This document shows positions 5,223 to 50,735 of a stretch of DNA of 64,000 bases, in pieces. The stretch is from the NCBI GenBank assembly GCA_024628785.1, contig CP102405.1:1240001-1304000 (forward strand), read 5' to 3'. The translations under genes and the position numbers were made by a program. The notes beneath the pieces were generated by a model, which saw only the letters and a program-made list of their open reading frames with translations, was not told the origin of the DNA and ran no database searches. Position 1 is the first letter of the stretch, and each line of letters begins with the position of its first letter. Origin of the DNA: Fusobacteria bacterium ZRK30 (GTDB lineage: Bacteria > Fusobacteriota > Fusobacteriia > Fusobacteriales > Fusobacteriaceae).

Positions 5223-6410
5223 TTATCCTTCAAATCCTTCATAGATCTCATCGTCAAAAGAAAAGTCTTCTAAGATTTCCTCTATAAATTCCTTACAGTT
5301 TTCCAACTTATACTTAGCTGGCAGAGGAACAGAATCTAAAAATTTAAAATTCTCATTCTCTAAGATAGGTAAAAATGCAGCAATAAGGGGTCTGTCAAAC
5401 TCACTGATATAAGTATGAGAACCAAATTGGCCGCTGTTTTTCATCTTGTTGATCTCTCTGGCATACTTAGTATGGTTAGAACAGTCATGAATCAGCATAT
5501 CCCAATTTTCTTTTACAGCAGTTTCCATAAATTTAAGGGTTACCTTCCTAGACCAAAGTGGTGAAAGGTATCCGTTTCTATATGTGTAGAAGTTTTCTCC
5601 CATATAGTTATTTAGGTTGTCCGTTCCTAAGTGAAGCTCGGCACAGTTCATATAATCCAACCCGATAGAAAGGATCTCCTCCTTTTTAGCCATGAAATCC
5701 TCATAGAATTTAGGAGTCATAGGAGTCTCTATCCCTACCCATTTAAAATATTTACGGGCAGTTCTCATAGCTTCTATAACCTGATCACTGGTGTCAGAGG
5801 CATTAAGGTTAAATCTGATCTCGTCCAGTCCGGCTTCAGCTAATTTTTTTAAATTATCGTCTGTACAAAGGGTACCATTGGTATACATATGCTGGTGAAC
5901 GCCTGCATCAGAGAATTTTTTAACTACATCATAGTATTTTTCTATCTCCATAAATGGCTCTAAGTATACATAGGCGATTCCAGATGGTTTCTTCTGAATA
6001 GATAACAACAGGTCGATATCTTCAGTCTCATACAGTTCCTCCCCAATATCCCACATATCCTGAGGGATAGGGTCTACTGAATCCAGTGAATCGTGGTAGT
6101 AACAGAACTCACAGGTAAGGTTACAGGTATGGGTCTTTCTGATCCCTCCAAGTCCGTCACCGAAGAGGCAAGAAATACATCCTGGAGGAAATTTTTCCTT
6201 TTTACCTACATAGTATGTACGTCCTCTCATATCTTTCAATCCATCTATCTTACTCTGGATCTCAGCTATCTCGCTCATATATGATCTCTCGATCTGTCTT
6301 TGGGTAGATCTGATTATATCTTCATACTCCTCAAAAACTTCCTTTGCATCTACGGGAATGTCTGCTAAATATTCAAACCATTCCAATGCTTCTTGCTTAC
6401 TTATTTTCAT
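5223..6410 (-). CDS. Radical SAM protein of unknown substrate
   Basis: A 395-residue radical SAM enzyme. The 4Fe-4S motif CNLTCEFC (CX3CX2C) lies about residues 97-104, preceded by a second cysteine pair in GCISCLFGDG. The SAM-binding part shows VYLEPFMEIE and YTNGTL. N-terminal residues ~1-60 are an acidic, helical segment. I chose the ATG at 6410 because ggaggtaaag lies just upstream; an upstream ATG at 6461 would add 17 residues without a good site. It resembles activating-enzyme or peptide-modifying radical SAM proteins, but no partner peptide or glycyl-radical enzyme is nearby. Confidence 0.85.
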   Translation of the reverse strand: MKISKQEALEWFEYLADIPVDAKEVFEEYEDIIRSTQRQIERSYMSEIAEIQSKIDGLKDMRGRTYYVGKKEKFPPGCISCLFGDGLGGIRKTHTCNLTCEFCYYHDSLDSVDPIPQDMWDIGEELYETEDIDLLLSIQKKPSGIAYVYLEPFMEIEKYYDVVKKFSDAGVHQHMYTNGTLCTDDNLKKLAEAGLDEIRFNLNASDTSDQVIEAMRTARKYFKWVGIETPMTPKFYEDFMAKKEEILSIGLDYMNCAELHLGTDNLNNYMGENFYTYRNGYLSPLWSRKVTLKFMETAVKENWDMLIHDCSNHTKYAREINKMKNSGQFGSHTYISEFDRPLIAAFLPILENENFKFLDSVPLPAKYKLENCKEFIEEILEDFSFDDEIYEGFEG

Positions 6411-6811
6411 CTTTACCTCCAATGTGTTGATGCTGTTTTCATTTTTATATTTCATAAACACAATTCTTAAATATTATAATTTTATTTTTACTCTTAATTA
6501 TATCATAAAATGAAAGATGTTGTTTACTAAAGAACTTGTTTTATCCCCTGGATTTGTTTTTGAAAGATAAATCCAGATCATGATTTGGGAAGTTAATGGG
6601 GGATTTTAAAATTTTATGAAAAATAAAAATTTAAGTATTTTTTAATAATTATTTTGAAATTGATTTCAAGGGGGGTATACTCGTAAGTGAAGAAGTAGGT
6701 AAGTGCTTCTCTTTTAGTGGTGATTTCAGAATATTATAATTTTAAATCTATGGAAAAAATAAAAGATATATTACAGTTTATTAAAGAGTCTAAATAAAGG
6801 GGAAAGAAATT
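6411..6811. other. Divergent intergenic region, 401 bases
   Basis: Holds the ribosome binding site of the radical SAM gene, an 8-base stem-loop (CTGGATTT at 6548-6555 with AAATCCAG at 6569-6576, no T-run), the promoter at 6654-6681 and about 130 bases of leader before the first GNAT gene. A 15-codon frame at 6750-6797 (MEKIKDILQFIKESK) lacks a ribosome binding site and I do not count it as a gene. Confidence 0.6.
6654..6681 (+). promoter_or_regulatory. Sigma-70 type promoter with GGG before the -10
   Basis: TTGAAA at 6654-6659, 16-base spacer, TATACT at 6676-6681. The spacer ends in GGGGGG. The same G-run-plus-TATACT form recurs at 18769 and 21765. It would drive the acetyltransferase-rich gene run. 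Confidence 0.7.
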
Positions 6812-7303
6812 ATGAATATCAGACAGATACAAGAAAAAGATGCAGAATTATTTTTAAATTTATTGTTGGAATTAGATAACGAAACTAAGTTTATGATGCT
6901 AGAGCCAGGAGAAAGAAAAAATGATCCTGAGGTAACCAGATCAATAATCAAAAGGAACCTTCAAGATTCATTTATGTATGTTGCAGAGGAGGGGGATAAA
7001 TTAGTCGGGTTTTTAACCGGAGAAAGAGGAAGTGCCAACAGGATAAAACACACCACCTATATAGTTATCGGAATCCTGGGTGGTCATCGTGGGAAAGGGA
7101 TAGGAAGGAAACTTTTTGAGGAACTGGAAAAATGGTCCAAAGAAAATAATATCAAAAGACTTGAATTGACTGTAATGATCCACAATGAAAAAGCAGTTAA
7201 CTTATACAAGAAGATGGGGTTTAAAATAGAGGGTGTCAAGGAATACAGTATCTTAGTGGACGGAAAATTTATAGATGAATATTATATGGGGAAAATACTA
7301 TAA
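6812..7303 (+). CDS. GNAT family N-acetyltransferase
   Basis: Transfers an acetyl group from acetyl-CoA to an amine; the substrate is unknown. The 163 residues contain the complete fold with the pyrophosphate-binding loop GGHRGKGIGRKL (about residues 90-101) and the C-terminal NEKAVNLYKKMGFKIEG, a pattern seen in RimI, ribosomal-protein and small-molecule acetyltransferases. The ATG follows aaaggggaaag. First gene of a plus-strand run and 15 bases before the CPBP gene, so probably co-transcribed with it. Confidence 0.9.
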   Translation: MNIRQIQEKDAELFLNLLLELDNETKFMMLEPGERKNDPEVTRSIIKRNLQDSFMYVAEEGDKLVGFLTGERGSANRIKHTTYIVIGILGGHRGKGIGRKLFEELEKWSKENNIKRLELTVMIHNEKAVNLYKKMGFKIEGVKEYSILVDGKFIDEYYMGKIL

Positions 7304-7318
7304 GTAAAGGGGCGGAAT

Positions 7319-8155
7319 ATGGAAAATCAAGCTAGGGAAGGTAAATTTGAATTATCTGTTTTAGGAGCTGTATGGATGGTAGTTTTTTATAATTTTATAG
7401 TTATGTTTATTATATTGATCCCTTTTCAAATTGTAATTGAGCTTATTTCTTTTAAAGATATTGGAAATGTTAAAGTAATCATGGATTTATTGAGAGGTAC
7501 TATTATAGACATTATAATAATAGTGCTGGCTTTAAAAAAAGTTAAAAAGGTAAGTAATGGGAATTTTAAGATAAAATTTATGGATAAATTTAACTATAAA
7601 TTATTGTTTTCTGTTATTTTCTTGATTGGAGGATATTATTTATTGTATGAAAGTTCAATAGGGATAATGATGGAGAAAGTTCCAGTACCTCAATTTATAG
7701 AAGAAGGATTTGAAGAAATGTTTCTACATCCTTACTCTGCTTTTATATCTACAGGAATAAGAGCACCTATCTTTGAAGAAATTTTAATGAGAGGAATAAT
7801 TCTGACAGGCTTATTGAATAGATACAGTCCCAGGAAAGCTATAATTGCCTCTGCACTGATATTTGGAGCATGTCATCTTAATATCCCGCAGTTTGTAGAT
7901 GCCACATTAGGAGGATTGATTTTAGGAATGATTTATTATAAAACAAATTCTTTGTTTCTTTGTATCGCTGCACATATGACCAACAATATGTTGTGTACGA
8001 TTATGGAGTATACAGAACATTCATTCAATATGACTACTTTCTTTATAGGTGTTTTAATTTTCCTAGGTTCAACAATGCTGTTCTTTCGATATCTCAAGGA
8101 ATTGGATGAAAGTTTAAAAGTAGACAGATCATATAAGAATCAGGAGGTACTATGA
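7319..8155 (+). CDS. CPBP family intramembrane metalloprotease (CAAX protease/Abi), copy 1
   Basis: A 278-residue polytopic membrane protein of the CPBP (Abi) family, glutamate-type intramembrane proteases linked in Gram-positives to bacteriocin self-immunity. The three motifs are present: EEILMR (EExxxR), FGACH (FxxxH) and HMTNN (HxxxN), within about seven predicted membrane segments. A paralogue lies at 11059-11925 with near-identical N- and C-termini. It overlaps the next gene by four bases (ATGA), so the two are translationally coupled. The substrate is unknown. Confidence 0.9.
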   Translation: MENQAREGKFELSVLGAVWMVVFYNFIVMFIILIPFQIVIELISFKDIGNVKVIMDLLRGTIIDIIIIVLALKKVKKVSNGNFKIKFMDKFNYKLLFSVIFLIGGYYLLYESSIGIMMEKVPVPQFIEEGFEEMFLHPYSAFISTGIRAPIFEEILMRGIILTGLLNRYSPRKAIIASALIFGACHLNIPQFVDATLGGLILGMIYYKTNSLFLCIAAHMTNNMLCTIMEYTEHSFNMTTFFIGVLIFLGSTMLFFRYLKELDESLKVDRSYKNQEVL

Positions 8156-8883
8156 AGATATATTATTTCAGCGGATCGGGGAACTCCTACTACATAGCCC
8201 AGAAGATAGCTAAAAAAACTAAAGGGACATTGGTAGATATAGCAAAATTAGAAGAAAATACAGTTTTAGAGGGGAAGGTAGGAGTCGTAGTTCCATGTTA
8301 TGCCTTTGGGGTACCAGATAAAGTGATTAAATTTTTAAAAAGAGTTGAAAATAAATCCACATATTCTTTTTTTATCCTCACATATGCCGGTTATTATGGG
8401 GGAACATTCAAACAGGTGGATAACCTGATGTCATTTAACTATAACAATGGGATTAAGATGCCGGGGTCGGACACGGTATTTACCAGTAAAAAAAATAGAG
8501 ATAAGAAAAATGAGGAGATTTATAGTTTAGCAGATGAAGAGATAGGTAAGATAATTAAAGAGATAAAAACGATGAAAGAGAATAAAATAAAGAGGAGTTT
8601 TGAATATTATCTGTTACTCCCTGTATATAAATTAGCCATGTGGTATTTCAGGGGAGCCAAAAGAGGATTTAAAACCAGTGAAAAGTGTACCCTGTGCGGG
8701 TTCTGTGAAAAGATATGTCCGGTAGAGAATATAAAGGTAGGAGATAAAGTTGTTTGGAAAAATCACTGCGAGGGATGCCTCAGGTGTATCAACTATTGTC
8801 CCTTTGAAGCTATAGAATATAAAAAATATACAAAGGGAAAGTTAAGGTTTAAAAATAAAAGGATAGACATAAGTGAAATATAG
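8152..8883 (+). CDS. EFR1-type flavodoxin/ferredoxin fusion protein
   Basis: A 243-residue electron-transfer protein: an N-terminal flavodoxin-like domain (FMN loop SGSGNSYYIAQ, residues ~6-16) followed by two 4Fe-4S motifs, CTLCGFCEKICP and CEGCLRCINYCP (about 177-220). This is the EFR1 architecture found in many anaerobes, a cytoplasmic redox carrier of unknown partner. It overlaps the CPBP gene by ATGA. Confidence 0.9.
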   Translation: MKIYYFSGSGNSYYIAQKIAKKTKGTLVDIAKLEENTVLEGKVGVVVPCYAFGVPDKVIKFLKRVENKSTYSFFILTYAGYYGGTFKQVDNLMSFNYNNGIKMPGSDTVFTSKKNRDKKNEEIYSLADEEIGKIIKEIKTMKENKIKRSFEYYLLLPVYKLAMWYFRGAKRGFKTSEKCTLCGFCEKICPVENIKVGDKVVWKNHCEGCLRCINYCPFEAIEYKKYTKGKLRFKNKRIDISEI

Positions 8884-8920
8884 AGAAGAGAGGAAGAAAA
8901 CGTAATTTAATGGGGGAAAA

Positions 8921-9742
8921 ATGCTGGGATATAAAGAAATTTTAGAGATACTGGAAGAAGTTGCAAAAAAAAATGAAAATAATTTAAAGATGATTTTAGA
9001 AGAGAAATTAAATGAAAGGGAAAAAAAAGTTTTTAGGTGGCTGTTTAAGGAGTATGAGGATCCTTCAAAGAAGCGTTGGTTTGATCCCCATCATATAATA
9101 TTTTCAACAAATTTTGCCCTAAGTTTAGTCGAGGAAGAAGATCTTGACAGGTTGATAGTAACAGCAATAATATTACATGATATTGGTTATTTTGCTATAG
9201 AGGATAAAAAAAATTGGATTAATTCAAATAGCAGAATTATTCATATGCAGGAAGGAGCTGCATTAGCTTCTAAAATTTTATATGAACAGGGTTTTAATCC
9301 GAAAGAGGTAGAAAAGGTTGTTGGGATGATAGCTGTTCATGATAATCCATATATTGGTATACCGATTATAGGTGATGACAGACTTGGCCTGAGAGATTGT
9401 GACAGGGCCTGGGTAATGCATCCCCTCTCTTTCTATAAAGACCTAAGTGAAACAGGGAGAAGTTATGAAAATCCAAAGGAATTATTGTTAGATAGAATAG
9501 TTCAATTTTATGCTCATGAACATCCATTTGACAGATCAAAGTGGAAGATAGATCTGCAGGAATTAAAAGATAATGGAATGTACATTGAGAAACCTGCTTA
9601 TGAATTTACAAAACAATATATAGAAAAACAATTTAACGGTAGGATAATGGAGAACAAAGACATGGAGTTATTAAGCAATAGAGAGTTGTTCACAAAATAT
9701 TTAGAAGAAAACATTATAAATTCAATGAAGGGGAAGATATGA
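8921..9742 (+). CDS. HD-domain phosphohydrolase
   Basis: A 273-residue protein with an HD domain: an upstream histidine in DPHHIIFS, then the metal-binding LHDIGY (about residue 88) and AVHDNPYIG. HD proteins are metal-dependent phosphohydrolases acting on nucleotides or cyclic nucleotides; the N-terminal 50 residues are a charged helical segment of no known family. The ATG follows tggggg. The last codons overlap the next GNAT gene by ATGA, pairing the two. The substrate is unknown. Confidence 0.82.
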   Translation: MLGYKEILEILEEVAKKNENNLKMILEEKLNEREKKVFRWLFKEYEDPSKKRWFDPHHIIFSTNFALSLVEEEDLDRLIVTAIILHDIGYFAIEDKKNWINSNSRIIHMQEGAALASKILYEQGFNPKEVEKVVGMIAVHDNPYIGIPIIGDDRLGLRDCDRAWVMHPLSFYKDLSETGRSYENPKELLLDRIVQFYAHEHPFDRSKWKIDLQELKDNGMYIEKPAYEFTKQYIEKQFNGRIMENKDMELLSNRELFTKYLEENIINSMKGKI

Positions 9743-29653: not shown

Positions 29654-29684
29654 AAAAATTAAATATTTAAATCCACTTTTGTGG

Positions 29685-29758
29685 TAGATGTTCGAAAAAT
29701 CCATCTATAAAAAACCAAAGACTATGTGTAGAGGTCGAAACAAATCTACGCTTTTTTT
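29685..29758 (+). ncRNA. Candidate preQ1-I riboswitch with terminator platform
   Basis: TAGATG at 29685-29690 pairs with CATCTA at 29702-29707 around an 11-base loop (TTCGAAAAATC). The 3' tail TAAAAAACCAAAG matches the A-rich tail of preQ1-I aptamers. A terminator (GTGTAGA at 29726-29732 with TCTACGC at 29745-29751, then seven Ts) follows. An antiterminator is also visible: TAGAT and TTCGA at 29685-29695 pair with TCGAA (29735-29739) and ATCTA (29744-29748). Ligand holding P1 would release the terminator, an OFF switch. Oddity: the usual P2 pairing of loop with tail is not clear. The gene context (a queuosine-precursor transporter) fits the class. Confidence 0.6.
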
Positions 29759-29769
29759 GGTGTACTTTT

Positions 29770-29795
29770 AGGAGGGATTTTTTATCCCTCCTTTT
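29770..29795 (+). terminator. Second terminator in the queuosine leader
   Basis: A perfect 9-base stem, AGGAGGGAT at 29770-29778 with ATCCCTCCT at 29784-29792, and a T-run. It stands 12 bases after the riboswitch terminator, and 115 bases before the transporter. Confidence 0.8.
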
Positions 29796-29846
29796 ATATT
29801 TAGAGAAATAAGAGGGAGATCTTAGACAAAAAAATTAAGAAATGGT

Positions 29847-29875
29847 ATTTGGGGCAGTCAAAAGTCAGCCCAAAT
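29847..29875 (+). repeat. Stem-loop before the transporter gene
   Basis: ATTTGGG (29847-29853) pairs with CCCAAAT (29869-29875), extended by GC pairing with one bulge; the loop is AGTCAAAAGTCA-like. There is no T-run, so it is not a terminator. Confidence 0.45.
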
Positions 29876-29909
29876 AATAGAGTGTAAAGAATAAAAAGGA
29901 GAAATAAAT

Positions 29910-30653
29910 ATGCAAAATATAATACTTTGGTTTGTAATGTTGTTAGTTAACTTTGGATTTATCTTATATTTTTATAGGGCTTATGGTAAGAATGGTCTCT
30001 ATGCTTATATACCGATAACTATAATATTGGCTCAGATACAGGTAAATAAAGCTATAGAGATAGGCGGGATGTCATCTACTTTAGGAAATATAATGTTTGC
30101 ATCAAGTTTTTTGGTGACAGATATATTATCAGAAAAATATGGATTGAAGGCAGCAGCCAAAGGAGCCAAGATAGGACTTTTAAGTAATATAGCAGCTACT
30201 ATATTACTCCAAGTTTCAGTGGCTTTTGAGCCTAGTACAGCTGATTATTCACAGGTGGCTATGGAAACATTGTTTGGACCATTATCCAGGTTTACAGCAG
30301 TGGGACTTATATGTTACTGGATGTCACAAAATATAGATATCCACCTGTTTGAAAAACTCAAGAAAAAATTTCCAGAAAATAAACATCTTTGGCTTAGAAA
30401 TAACGGTAGTACGATGCTGAGTCAATTTGTAGACACAGCAATCTTTACGTATTTAGCTTTCTACCTAAGTTTTGACTTTTTAGGATTCTCATATGCGGGA
30501 TTTTATGATTTTAAAACATGTTTAGAGATATTTACAACTACATATCTGATGAAAATTGTAATAGCAACCTTTGATACACCATTTTTATATCTGGCTAAAA
30601 AGATGCATAGAGAGACGGCAATTGAAGATGGAAAATTAAAAATGGAAAGTTAA
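29910..30653 (+). CDS. yhhQ: Queuosine precursor transporter, YhhQ/VUT family
   Basis: A 247-residue inner-membrane carrier of the VUT (YhhQ/COG1738) family, which imports the queuosine precursors preQ0, preQ1 or queuine. The family pattern SSFLVTDILSEKYG (about residues 65-78) and SQFVDTAIFTYLAF (about 171-184) is present within seven predicted membrane segments. It follows a candidate preQ1-type riboswitch leader and precedes a QueL candidate by 61 bases, which supports the role. Confidence 0.88.
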   Translation: MQNIILWFVMLLVNFGFILYFYRAYGKNGLYAYIPITIILAQIQVNKAIEIGGMSSTLGNIMFASSFLVTDILSEKYGLKAAAKGAKIGLLSNIAATILLQVSVAFEPSTADYSQVAMETLFGPLSRFTAVGLICYWMSQNIDIHLFEKLKKKFPENKHLWLRNNGSTMLSQFVDTAIFTYLAFYLSFDFLGFSYAGFYDFKTCLEIFTTTYLMKIVIATFDTPFLYLAKKMHRETAIEDGKLKMES

Positions 30654-30714
30654 AATAATATGATTATTATTTTAAATAAGTGAAAAATACAGAATATAAA
30701 GGTAGAGGTGGAAC

Positions 30715-31413
30715 ATGAGATATAATAAGGTTTTAGATAAAAATATTAGAGAAATAGTACTCCTTAAAAGCTTTCCCTGCAGTTATGGGAAATGCAAATT
30801 TTGCAACTATATAGAAGATAATTCTATAGATGAAGGAAAAATAAATGAGGTTAACTTTGATGTTTTAAAGGAAGTAACCGGAGAATTTGGAGTATTAGAA
30901 GTTATAAACTCTGGTTCTGTTTTTGAAATTCCCTCTGAAACACTAAAAAAAATCAGGGAAGTTGTCAAGCAAAAGAAGATAAAGATCTTATATTTTGAAG
31001 CCTATTACGGTTATATAAAAAGATTGGATGAGATCAGAGATTATTTTGATGGGGTAGAAATAAGATTCCGTATAGGAGTTGAAACCTTTGATGACAAGTA
31101 CAGGATAAATTCCTACGGTAAAAACTTTGTGATAGACGAAGGTATCTTAAAAAAATTAAGCAGTGAATTTTATTCAGCTTGTTTACTGGTTTGTACTGTA
31201 GGCCAGACTGAGGAAATGATAGCTAAAGATATAGAGAGAGGACTGGAAAACTTTAAACAGATAACCATAAATGTATTTATAGACAATGGAACCGAGGTAA
31301 AGCAGGATAAGGATCTGGTTAAATGGCTTATGAAAAACTATAGTTATTTAAAGGCTGATCCCCGTGTGGAACTTTTATATGACAATAAAGATTTAGGAGT
31401 ATTTGAACAGTAA
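30715..31413 (+). CDS. Radical SAM protein, probable queuine lyase (QueL)
   Basis: A 232-residue protein with cysteines at 22, 27 and 30 (FPCSYGKCKFC), giving CX4CX2C instead of the usual CX3CX2C. FEAYYGYI, RIGVETFDD and NSYGKNF are further conserved-looking segments. Queuine lyase, known from Clostridioides difficile, is a non-canonical radical SAM enzyme that converts imported queuine to preQ1 and is coded beside queuosine transporters. The setting here, directly behind the YhhQ gene and under a preQ1-type leader, matches that. It could instead be another small radical SAM enzyme. Confidence 0.65.
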   Translation: MRYNKVLDKNIREIVLLKSFPCSYGKCKFCNYIEDNSIDEGKINEVNFDVLKEVTGEFGVLEVINSGSVFEIPSETLKKIREVVKQKKIKILYFEAYYGYIKRLDEIRDYFDGVEIRFRIGVETFDDKYRINSYGKNFVIDEGILKKLSSEFYSACLLVCTVGQTEEMIAKDIERGLENFKQITINVFIDNGTEVKQDKDLVKWLMKNYSYLKADPRVELLYDNKDLGVFEQ

Positions 31414-31449: not shown

Positions 31450-31485
31450 AAAAGACTGTAGAGGAAAAATTCTACAGTCTTTTTT
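31450..31485. terminator. Bidirectional terminator
   Basis: AAAAGACTGTAGA at 31450-31462 pairs perfectly with TCTACAGTCTTTT at 31471-31483. It ends the queL candidate and the convergent MATE gene. Confidence 0.92.
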
Positions 31486-31487
31486 AT

Positions 31488-32801
31488 TTAAGCTAATTTT
31501 AAACTTTTTATTGATCTATTTGTCAGACAATAACTTACAATTAGACAGCAAACTTCGGAAAGAGGAATAGCCAGCCAGATTCCCTTGTCACCGAAAAAGT
31601 GAGGAAGTGTAAATAAAAATATCGATACAAATATAAGAGAACGTAAAAGAGCTATCAATGCTGATTCAAATGGTTTTTCAATGGCTGTATGAAATGCAGA
31701 AGCAATTACATTTATAAATGAAATGAAGTAAGCTAAGATAAAATAACTGGTGGCTGTTAATGCTAACTTAGTCAGTTCAATATTTCCTTTAGTAAATAAA
31801 CTTATAAGTGACACACTGTTGAACTTCATTATAAAAAAAGCAGAAATACCTACAAAAGCTCCAGTAAAAAGTGAAATTTTCAAAATTTCTTTTATTTTAT
31901 CAGGCCTGTTTGCACCTAAATTATAAGAAACAATCGGCTGAAGAGCTAGAGAGAGTCCGTATAATGTTATATTTACGAGGTTATTTACATAAAATACAAT
32001 AGTGAGAGCGGAAACACCCAGTTCACCAATATATTCCATTATAATTCTATTGAATAAAAATGCTGCTATTGCAGTGGATATAACTGATAACATCTCAGAG
32101 CTCCCATTATAGAGTGCTGTTTTTAATAGTGTGAAATCTCCTTTAGGTTTACAAAGCTGGATTTTAGACCTGCCTTTAAAAAATAGCCCAAATAGTGCCA
32201 TTGTTCCAAATAAATTAGCCAAAATAGTTGCCCAGCCGGCCCCTTCTATTCCCCAGCCAAGTTTTACAATAAAGATGTAATCCAATATGATATTAGAAAG
32301 GCAGCAAGTAAATCCACTTAAAAAGATAGCATTTGGTTTTCCACCGATTCTTGCAAAAGTTTCTGTAAATATTGGCCCGGTAAAAAAAATTGCAAATAAA
32401 AGAATTGGAAATAAATAACCTTTGACTAAATTAAAAAGTGTAGCTCCTCCAAGGAAAATTATTATCTTATCTATAAAGATTAAACTAAATAAAGATAAAC
32501 CACTAATGATAGCAAGAAAAGATATAAAGATAAAACTAGTGATCTCGTTTGCTTTTTGAGTGTTACCTTTTCCCATTTGGATATTAGCTACAACCGATCC
32601 ACCTATAGCAATCATCATGGCTATACTGGTTAGTGTATTTACATAGGGCATAGCTAAGTTTATAGCCGCAAGCCCCCTTGGTCCTACAAAATTTCCTACA
32701 AACATCCCATCAATCATAGTCTGCATAGAAACTATTAGAAGACCGATGATACTTGGAATAGCAAATTTAAAAAATGTTTTTGTTGTTGATTCGTTTTTCA
32801 T
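31488..32801 (-). CDS. MATE family multidrug efflux transporter
   Basis: A 437-residue, twelve-segment membrane exporter of the MATE family, likely driven by Na+ or H+. It has the early TMIDGMFVGNFVGPRGLAAI segment, GWGIEGAGWATILANLFG, and the second-half ALTIVFYVNNLVNITLYGLSLALQP copy. It resembles the MepA/VmrA-like branch. Expression is probably repressed through two tandem palindromes directly upstream (32833-32858). The repressor gene is not in view. Confidence 0.9.
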   Translation of the reverse strand: MKNESTTKTFFKFAIPSIIGLLIVSMQTMIDGMFVGNFVGPRGLAAINLAMPYVNTLTSIAMMIAIGGSVVANIQMGKGNTQKANEITSFIFISFLAIISGLSLFSLIFIDKIIIFLGGATLFNLVKGYLFPILLFAIFFTGPIFTETFARIGGKPNAIFLSGFTCCLSNIILDYIFIVKLGWGIEGAGWATILANLFGTMALFGLFFKGRSKIQLCKPKGDFTLLKTALYNGSSEMLSVISTAIAAFLFNRIIMEYIGELGVSALTIVFYVNNLVNITLYGLSLALQPIVSYNLGANRPDKIKEILKISLFTGAFVGISAFFIMKFNSVSLISLFTKGNIELTKLALTATSYFILAYFISFINVIASAFHTAIEKPFESALIALLRSLIFVSIFLFTLPHFFGDKGIWLAIPLSEVCCLIVSYCLTNRSIKSLKLA

Positions 32802-50457: not shown

Positions 50458-50735
50458 GTCGTACTAACTGGGGAGCTAGCGGTGCCTTGTAATCTACAAT
50501 CCGCTTTAGTAGAGGTGAAGTCGACCTGAGGATCAATCTGTCATAGCAGGTCCTTTTAGAAGATGTTGAGAGTAAAGTCCTATACGGCGAAATGCCAGTG
50601 AACCGTGTCAGATCCGGAAGGAAGCAGCACTAAGTTGGTTATTTTGGGTGTTATAGGGTAGCTTTGTTTGAGTTTTCTGATTGGGTGCCGTGTGGTTGGA
50701 ATGTTTTCGAAGGTCGATGTACGGCCCTTTTTTTT
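50458..50735 (+). ncRNA. ffs: Signal recognition particle RNA, long bacterial form
   Basis: The 4.5S/6S RNA core of SRP, which targets membrane proteins. The Ffh-binding helix 8 is clear: GTCAGATCCGGAAGGAAGC with its GGAA tetraloop (about 50608-50627). The 5' part (GGGGAGCTAGCGGTGCC) is the Alu-like domain of the ~270-base form seen in Firmicutes and relatives. The 5' GTCGTAC pairs with 3' GTACGGC at 50719-50725, and the T-run ending the transcript follows. The transcript end converges on the AAG gene. Confidence 0.93.

Follow-up and report, generated by a model that had tools for sequence, protein, structure and literature searches.

The stretch of DNA considered here (the window, 64,000 nucleotides of Fusobacteria bacterium ZRK30) holds at 29654-31413 a leader, a transporter gene and a gene for a radical SAM protein of 232 residues, which an earlier reading, made from the sequence alone, had taken for a queuine-salvage unit repressed by preQ1. 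Do these elements form such a unit, and how would the preQ1 which it delivers fit into the rest of the queuosine pathway of this organism? We conclude that they very probably constitute a preQ1-controlled operon for the import and recycling of queuine, whose parts are known and whose arrangement is new. The genome encodes in addition a de novo route to preQ0 from which the reductase QueF is missing, and in which two neighboring proteins, called B and C below, probably act as a non-orthologous preQ0 (nitrile) reductase; we regard the two statements, taken together, as probable too.

We compared the 232-residue protein, encoded at 30715-31413 (+), with proteins of solved structure. A phmmer search returned a single match, the queuine lyase QueL of Clostridium spiroforme (6p78), with E=2e-58 between residues 2-229 of our protein and 25-249 of the other; the two are 46% identical over their full length and have many invariant columns in common. 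The cysteines of the cluster motif CX4CX2C are present as described in the sequence-only reading (Cys22, Cys27, Cys30) and are invariant in all ten aligned rows, 6p78 included. Foldseek places the AlphaFold model of the protein (pLDDT 87) on 6p78 with a TM of 0.94/0.95, an rmsd of 1.3 A and E=3.4e-24, while the next match is far weaker (E=2.7e-5, TM about 0.5). None of the NCBIfam models applies to the protein, and Pfam Radical_SAM gives 19.3 bits, below its cut-off of 29.5. This means that ordinary annotation would miss this gene, and that it was named by the search of the PDB. As no other radical SAM family fits, the proposed likeness to QueL is upheld, and both the alignment and the predicted fold point to a genuine QueL-type enzyme, with the activity predicted for it, although the protein comes from another phylum than that of C. 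spiroforme and its gene has different partners. The gene was found in 23 of 31 relatives and in 70 of the 98 Fusobacteriota genomes of our survey. In one otherwise nearly complete genome it is split into two overlapping frames (G044:C1:165212-165915), and was probably broken by a frameshift.

The gene preceding queL, at 29910-30653 (+), encodes a transporter of 247 residues of the YhhQ/QPTR family of queuosine-precursor transporters. It scores 175.3 bits against TIGR00697, for a cut-off of 50.95, and 150.6 bits against Pfam Vut_1, in agreement with the earlier assignment to VUT/YhhQ. Among the 31 relatives, yhhQ lies at most 400 bp from queL, on either side, in 22 of the 23 genomes which carry queL; this link provides a genetic handle on the transport substrate of YhhQ in this branch. 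Behind queL we read from the sequence an inverted repeat, AAAAGACTGTAGA...TCTACAGTCTTTT, at 31450-31483, which is likely to be a terminator common to queL and to the convergent gene at 31488-32801.

The leader (29654-29909, upstream of yhhQ) had been credited with preQ1-I-like features, and it does have a match to the preQ1-I riboswitch aptamer RF00522 at 29681-29724 (+), whose 35.7 bits are slightly below the Rfam gathering score of 39. Its E-value is 8.7e-6 in a search of 361 bases and 2.0e-5 in a search of the whole 3.6-Mb genome, where no second RF00522 match was found. In an alignment of ten leaders from its own genus the aptamer does not vary (some of these leaders come from one genome entered twice), and its 3' strand of P1 is preceded by UC, as is the mark of class I type I preQ1 aptamers (PMC11625349). 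In other genera, preQ1-I aptamers of 37.0-41 bits stand beside the same genes, and some of them, at 39.2-41 bits, exceed the Rfam score. Two hairpins follow, so that an expression platform with a terminator-like hairpin is present in the leader. Hairpin 1 (29715-29760, +) has an inner stem, 29726-29732/29745-29751, with a U-run behind it, and an invariant outer stem in which the tail CCAAAG of the aptamer pairs with UUUUGG; one of its pairs shows a compensatory change, and it is a candidate terminator/antiterminator. Hairpin 2 (29770-29792, +) resembles an intrinsic terminator (one found, for 0.1 expected), and has compensatory changes at three pairs, every cell being paired; its coupling to the aptamer is not obvious. 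Over both hairpins and five distinct leaders, four pairs are changed on both sides and 98.6% of the cells are paired.

Some observations on the leader and on other RNA elements may be added here. Between hairpin 2 and yhhQ, our genome and a near relative (L025) have about 90 extra bases (29800-29890 of the window), with an inverted repeat GGGCAGTC...GCCC, which are missing from several congeners. Near the yhhQ-queL unit of G017 there is a purine riboswitch (L030 3107-3204, 53.3 bits). The only Rfam match above threshold in the window is a large bacterial SRP RNA (RF01854, 152.9 bits) at 50459-50724 (+).

We then consider the remainder of the pathway in the genome itself (3.6 Mb, 98% complete). 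It encodes Tgt (TIGR00430, 560.6 bits), in which Cys and Val are kept at the positions Cys158/Val233, the mark of the Tgt enzymes which use preQ1 (PMC3660597), and it encodes QueA and QueH. With these three encoded, the genome has a use for preQ1 made by QueL, so that the salvage reading holds. The sequence-only reading had proposed to look for tgt, queA, queC, queD, queE and queF. All of them are there with the exception of queF (PF14489), for which we found no match in this genome, while the control genomes and 13 other Fusobacteriota did match. Full de novo synthesis without tgt had been named as a finding which would speak against salvage; what we observe is tgt present and queF absent. 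Since queD, queE and queC are present, the organism does not live on salvage only. Nor does the pathogen setting in which the earlier reading had placed such recycling apply: the nearest QueL (91% identity) comes from a Psychrilyobacter MAG, and our genome looks free-living and marine. Through the window unit, the reach of QueL-based recycling of queuine now takes in free-living fusobacteria.

The closest known counterpart is the operon queK-qrtT-queL of C. difficile, which is under a preQ1-I riboswitch (PMC11477304, after Yuan et al. 2019). Each unit combines QueL with a transporter for a precursor and, by prediction in our case, with control through a preQ1-I element, and in each the preQ1 would go to a bacterial Tgt. 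They differ in that our unit has YhhQ/QPTR where C. difficile has the ECF component QrtT, in that queK is not part of our unit, and in that our genome also makes preQ0 de novo. In our reading, preQ1 would bind the leader and lower the expression of the unit, YhhQ would import queuine or another precursor of queuosine, QueL would cleave queuine to preQ1, and the preQ1-type Tgt would insert the latter into tRNA, where QueA and QueH would complete queuosine; the ligand of the riboswitch, the substrate of the transporter and the activity of QueL, like that of B/C below, are what we infer from the sequences.

A second source of preQ1 would be an operon, intact in queD-queE-queC, outside the window and unlinked to it, B-C-queD-queE-queC, at G000:C1:485564-489355 (5565-9356 of the extracted locus L053, in whose coordinates B is at 5565-6587, C at 6580-7374, queD at 7389-7808, queE at 7904-8569 and queC at 8679-9356). 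Curated models match QueD, QueE and QueC, all three of full length, and these would provide preQ0. B matches PF06050 (139.7 bits, cut-off 28.4) and C is an ATP-dependent activase of the HgdC type (TIGR00241, 164.5 bits, cut-off 125.4). As QueF is absent, the reduction of preQ0 to preQ1 most likely falls to this pair.

We looked for the same genes in our sample of 98 Fusobacteriota genomes, which are related to one another. QueC was found in 27 genomes, QueF in 13 and B in 15, and C adjoins B in all 15. Of the 27 QueC genomes, 13 have QueF and another 13 have B; the two never occur together, and one genome has neither. Thus every QueF genome has QueC and none has B, whereas all but one of the 14 QueC genomes devoid of QueF have B. 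The exception is G013, a draft which is 90% complete; its congener G069 does have B, on a contig with no que gene in view. The two B genomes without QueC (the other 13 have it) are likewise drafts, with completeness values of 70 and 81%. The split between B and QueF gives a Fisher p=7e-7 before allowing for relatedness, which weakens this raw value. Most of the association is due to one QueC clade, but on the QueC tree B stands alongside two QueC lineages or more (p=4.7e-7 in the AU test). B occurs in at least two gene orders. In G019, a member of another family, B-C stands directly before a different queC, as read across two contigs with an exact overlap of 119 bases. In the genomes examined, the QueF operons of other genera have the order queD-queE-folE-queC-queF or a rearrangement of it, and contain neither B nor C. 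Among plasmids, B was found in Ilyobacter only: on pILYOP01 of Ilyobacter polytropus, the annotation gives a 2-hydroxyacyl-CoA dehydratase and an activase, followed in this order by queD, queE, folE and queC (the pair ILYOP_RS11680/ILYOP_RS11675 is an example of B/C in this species). We found no match to B in viral contigs, and no preQ1 riboswitch at the B/C operons, where we looked for one. A preQ1-I aptamer of 39.2 bits (L134 4871-4915, +) precedes queF-queC-queD-queE in G070.

The cysteines of B give some indication of how it could work. Across the 15 sequences, C52, C62, C78 and C281 are invariant and C164 is kept in 13. The triad C52, C78, C281 aligns with cysteines of DCCP and agrees with the three cysteines seen in subunits that hold a single [4Fe-4S] cluster, BzdO among them. 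No further cysteine conserved in these 15 sequences could serve a second (distal) cubane, as judged by the ligand pattern of BzdN (PMC11971306), hence a single [4Fe-4S] cluster is predicted. C keeps both cysteines of the bridging cluster (HgdC Cys127 and Cys166) in comparison with 1hux and in all 15 sequences. Like HgdAB, HadBC and BzdNO (2-hydroxyacyl-CoA dehydratases and class I benzoyl-CoA reductases), B thus has the PF06050 domain, the cysteine triad and an activase of the HgdC type. Those enzymes, however, act on CoA substrates and are built from two catalytic subunits that differ from each other, whereas a single B gene with the activase is found at all 15 loci, nearly all of them within or beside queuosine genes. 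The closest relatives of solved structure are DCCP/DCCP-R (6eno, 7yyl; NF040772), which likewise consist of one subunit and one ATPase, and which reduce small substrates such as acetylene and azide at the expense of ATP (PMC11971306). B falls short of their length by about 85 residues, and its conserved cysteines number four to five, against the six ligands of the [8Fe-9S] cluster. The absence of these six ligands and a score of 51.4 bits against NF040772, the DCCP equivalog model (cut-off 350), led us to drop the reading of B as a DCCP; seven of seven B members tested match this model, none of them as an equivalog. An "in-frame TAG" flagged in B of the genus g19 is the natural stop after residue 330, and no case of recoding.

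From these features a mechanism can be proposed. C would hydrolyse ATP and hand low-potential electrons from its [4Fe-4S] cluster to B, whose own [4Fe-4S] cluster, having an open iron, would be charged in this way at the cost of ATP; B would then reduce the nitrile of preQ0 in two stages of two electrons each. The catalytic cysteine of QueF forms a thioimide, and the invariant Cys62 of B could do the same. In this more specific form, B/C would be a nitrile reductase with iron-sulfur clusters, driven by ATP, from the superfamily of the 2-hydroxyacyl-CoA dehydratases and benzoyl-CoA reductases; unrelated to QueF and replacing it in anaerobes, it would take the nitrile to the primary amine with four electrons, possibly via the thioimide; we think this likely, if a little less so than preQ0 reduction as such. 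With the NADPH-dependent QueF, B/C would share the reaction and the association with queD-queE-queC; it has no detected sequence relation to QueF, and would depend on ATP and iron-sulfur clusters and presumably be sensitive to oxygen.

One may object that the window unit carries out salvage as described while B/C has nothing to do with preQ0, which would then serve another product or be a dead end, all preQ1 coming from QueL or from import. The family of B is indeed best known for the dehydration or the reduction of CoA-bound or small substrates (PMC11971306), and our genome does have QueL and YhhQ. But the distribution of B described above, which is absent from all QueF genomes and present in all QueC genomes without QueF except one, speaks against it. 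Moreover, seven B genomes lack QueL, and two of these, G016 and G019, lack YhhQ and QueF as well, while keeping QueA, QueH and QueC. As for another product of preQ0, our genome encodes a single protein of the TGT family, and thus gives no sign of a DpdA using preQ0 for DNA. We consider this objection unlikely to be right.

Far less probable still is that B/C works at another step, for instance as an epoxyqueuosine reductase or in an alternative QueD, QueE or QueC chemistry. The operon does contain in B/C a system of the oxidoreductase type, QueH offers a precedent of a non-orthologous epoxyqueuosine reductase (PMC5372724), and G009 gave no match to QueH; but most B genomes, ours included, have QueH already, QueD, QueE and QueC are accounted for by the curated models, and the only empty step is the one from preQ0 to preQ1. 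We give just as little credit to plain salvage of preQ1, in which the 232-residue protein would be related to QueL but act on another substrate, and YhhQ would import preQ1 or preQ0 directly. It is true that YhhQ of E. coli handles preQ0 more efficiently than preQ1 (PMC5372724), and that 46% identity does not prove identity of substrate. Yet the best fold match, at 1.3 A, is a queuine lyase with queuine bound, many invariant columns are common to both proteins, and the unit carries a preQ1-I aptamer as does the C. difficile operon (PMC11477304). We retain queuine recycling by the window unit, with B/C as the probable preQ0 reductase.

To our knowledge, no enzyme of primary metabolism other than QueF turns a nitrile into an amine. 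In the open-access papers which we searched, we found nothing that joins preQ0, QueF or queuosine with double-cubane proteins, dehydratases or activases. Genome surveys judge from QueF whether a bacterium is capable of making queuosine, and a survey of the gut sorts the variants of the pathway by QueF, with no B/C-like alternative in its passages on these variants (PMC6593275). Should the proposed reaction be true, anaerobes devoid of QueF would be misread as auxotrophs. The dehydratase/benzoyl-CoA reductase superfamily, in which the physiological role of the single-subunit DCCP members is still unclear (PMC11971306), would also gain such a role, with a substrate that can be tested directly.

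Finally we must note a second copy of B, without activase or que genes, at G068:C4:831923-832900 (L124). It adjoins genes which flank the intact operon in sister genomes, and looks like a leftover of the relocation of this operon.
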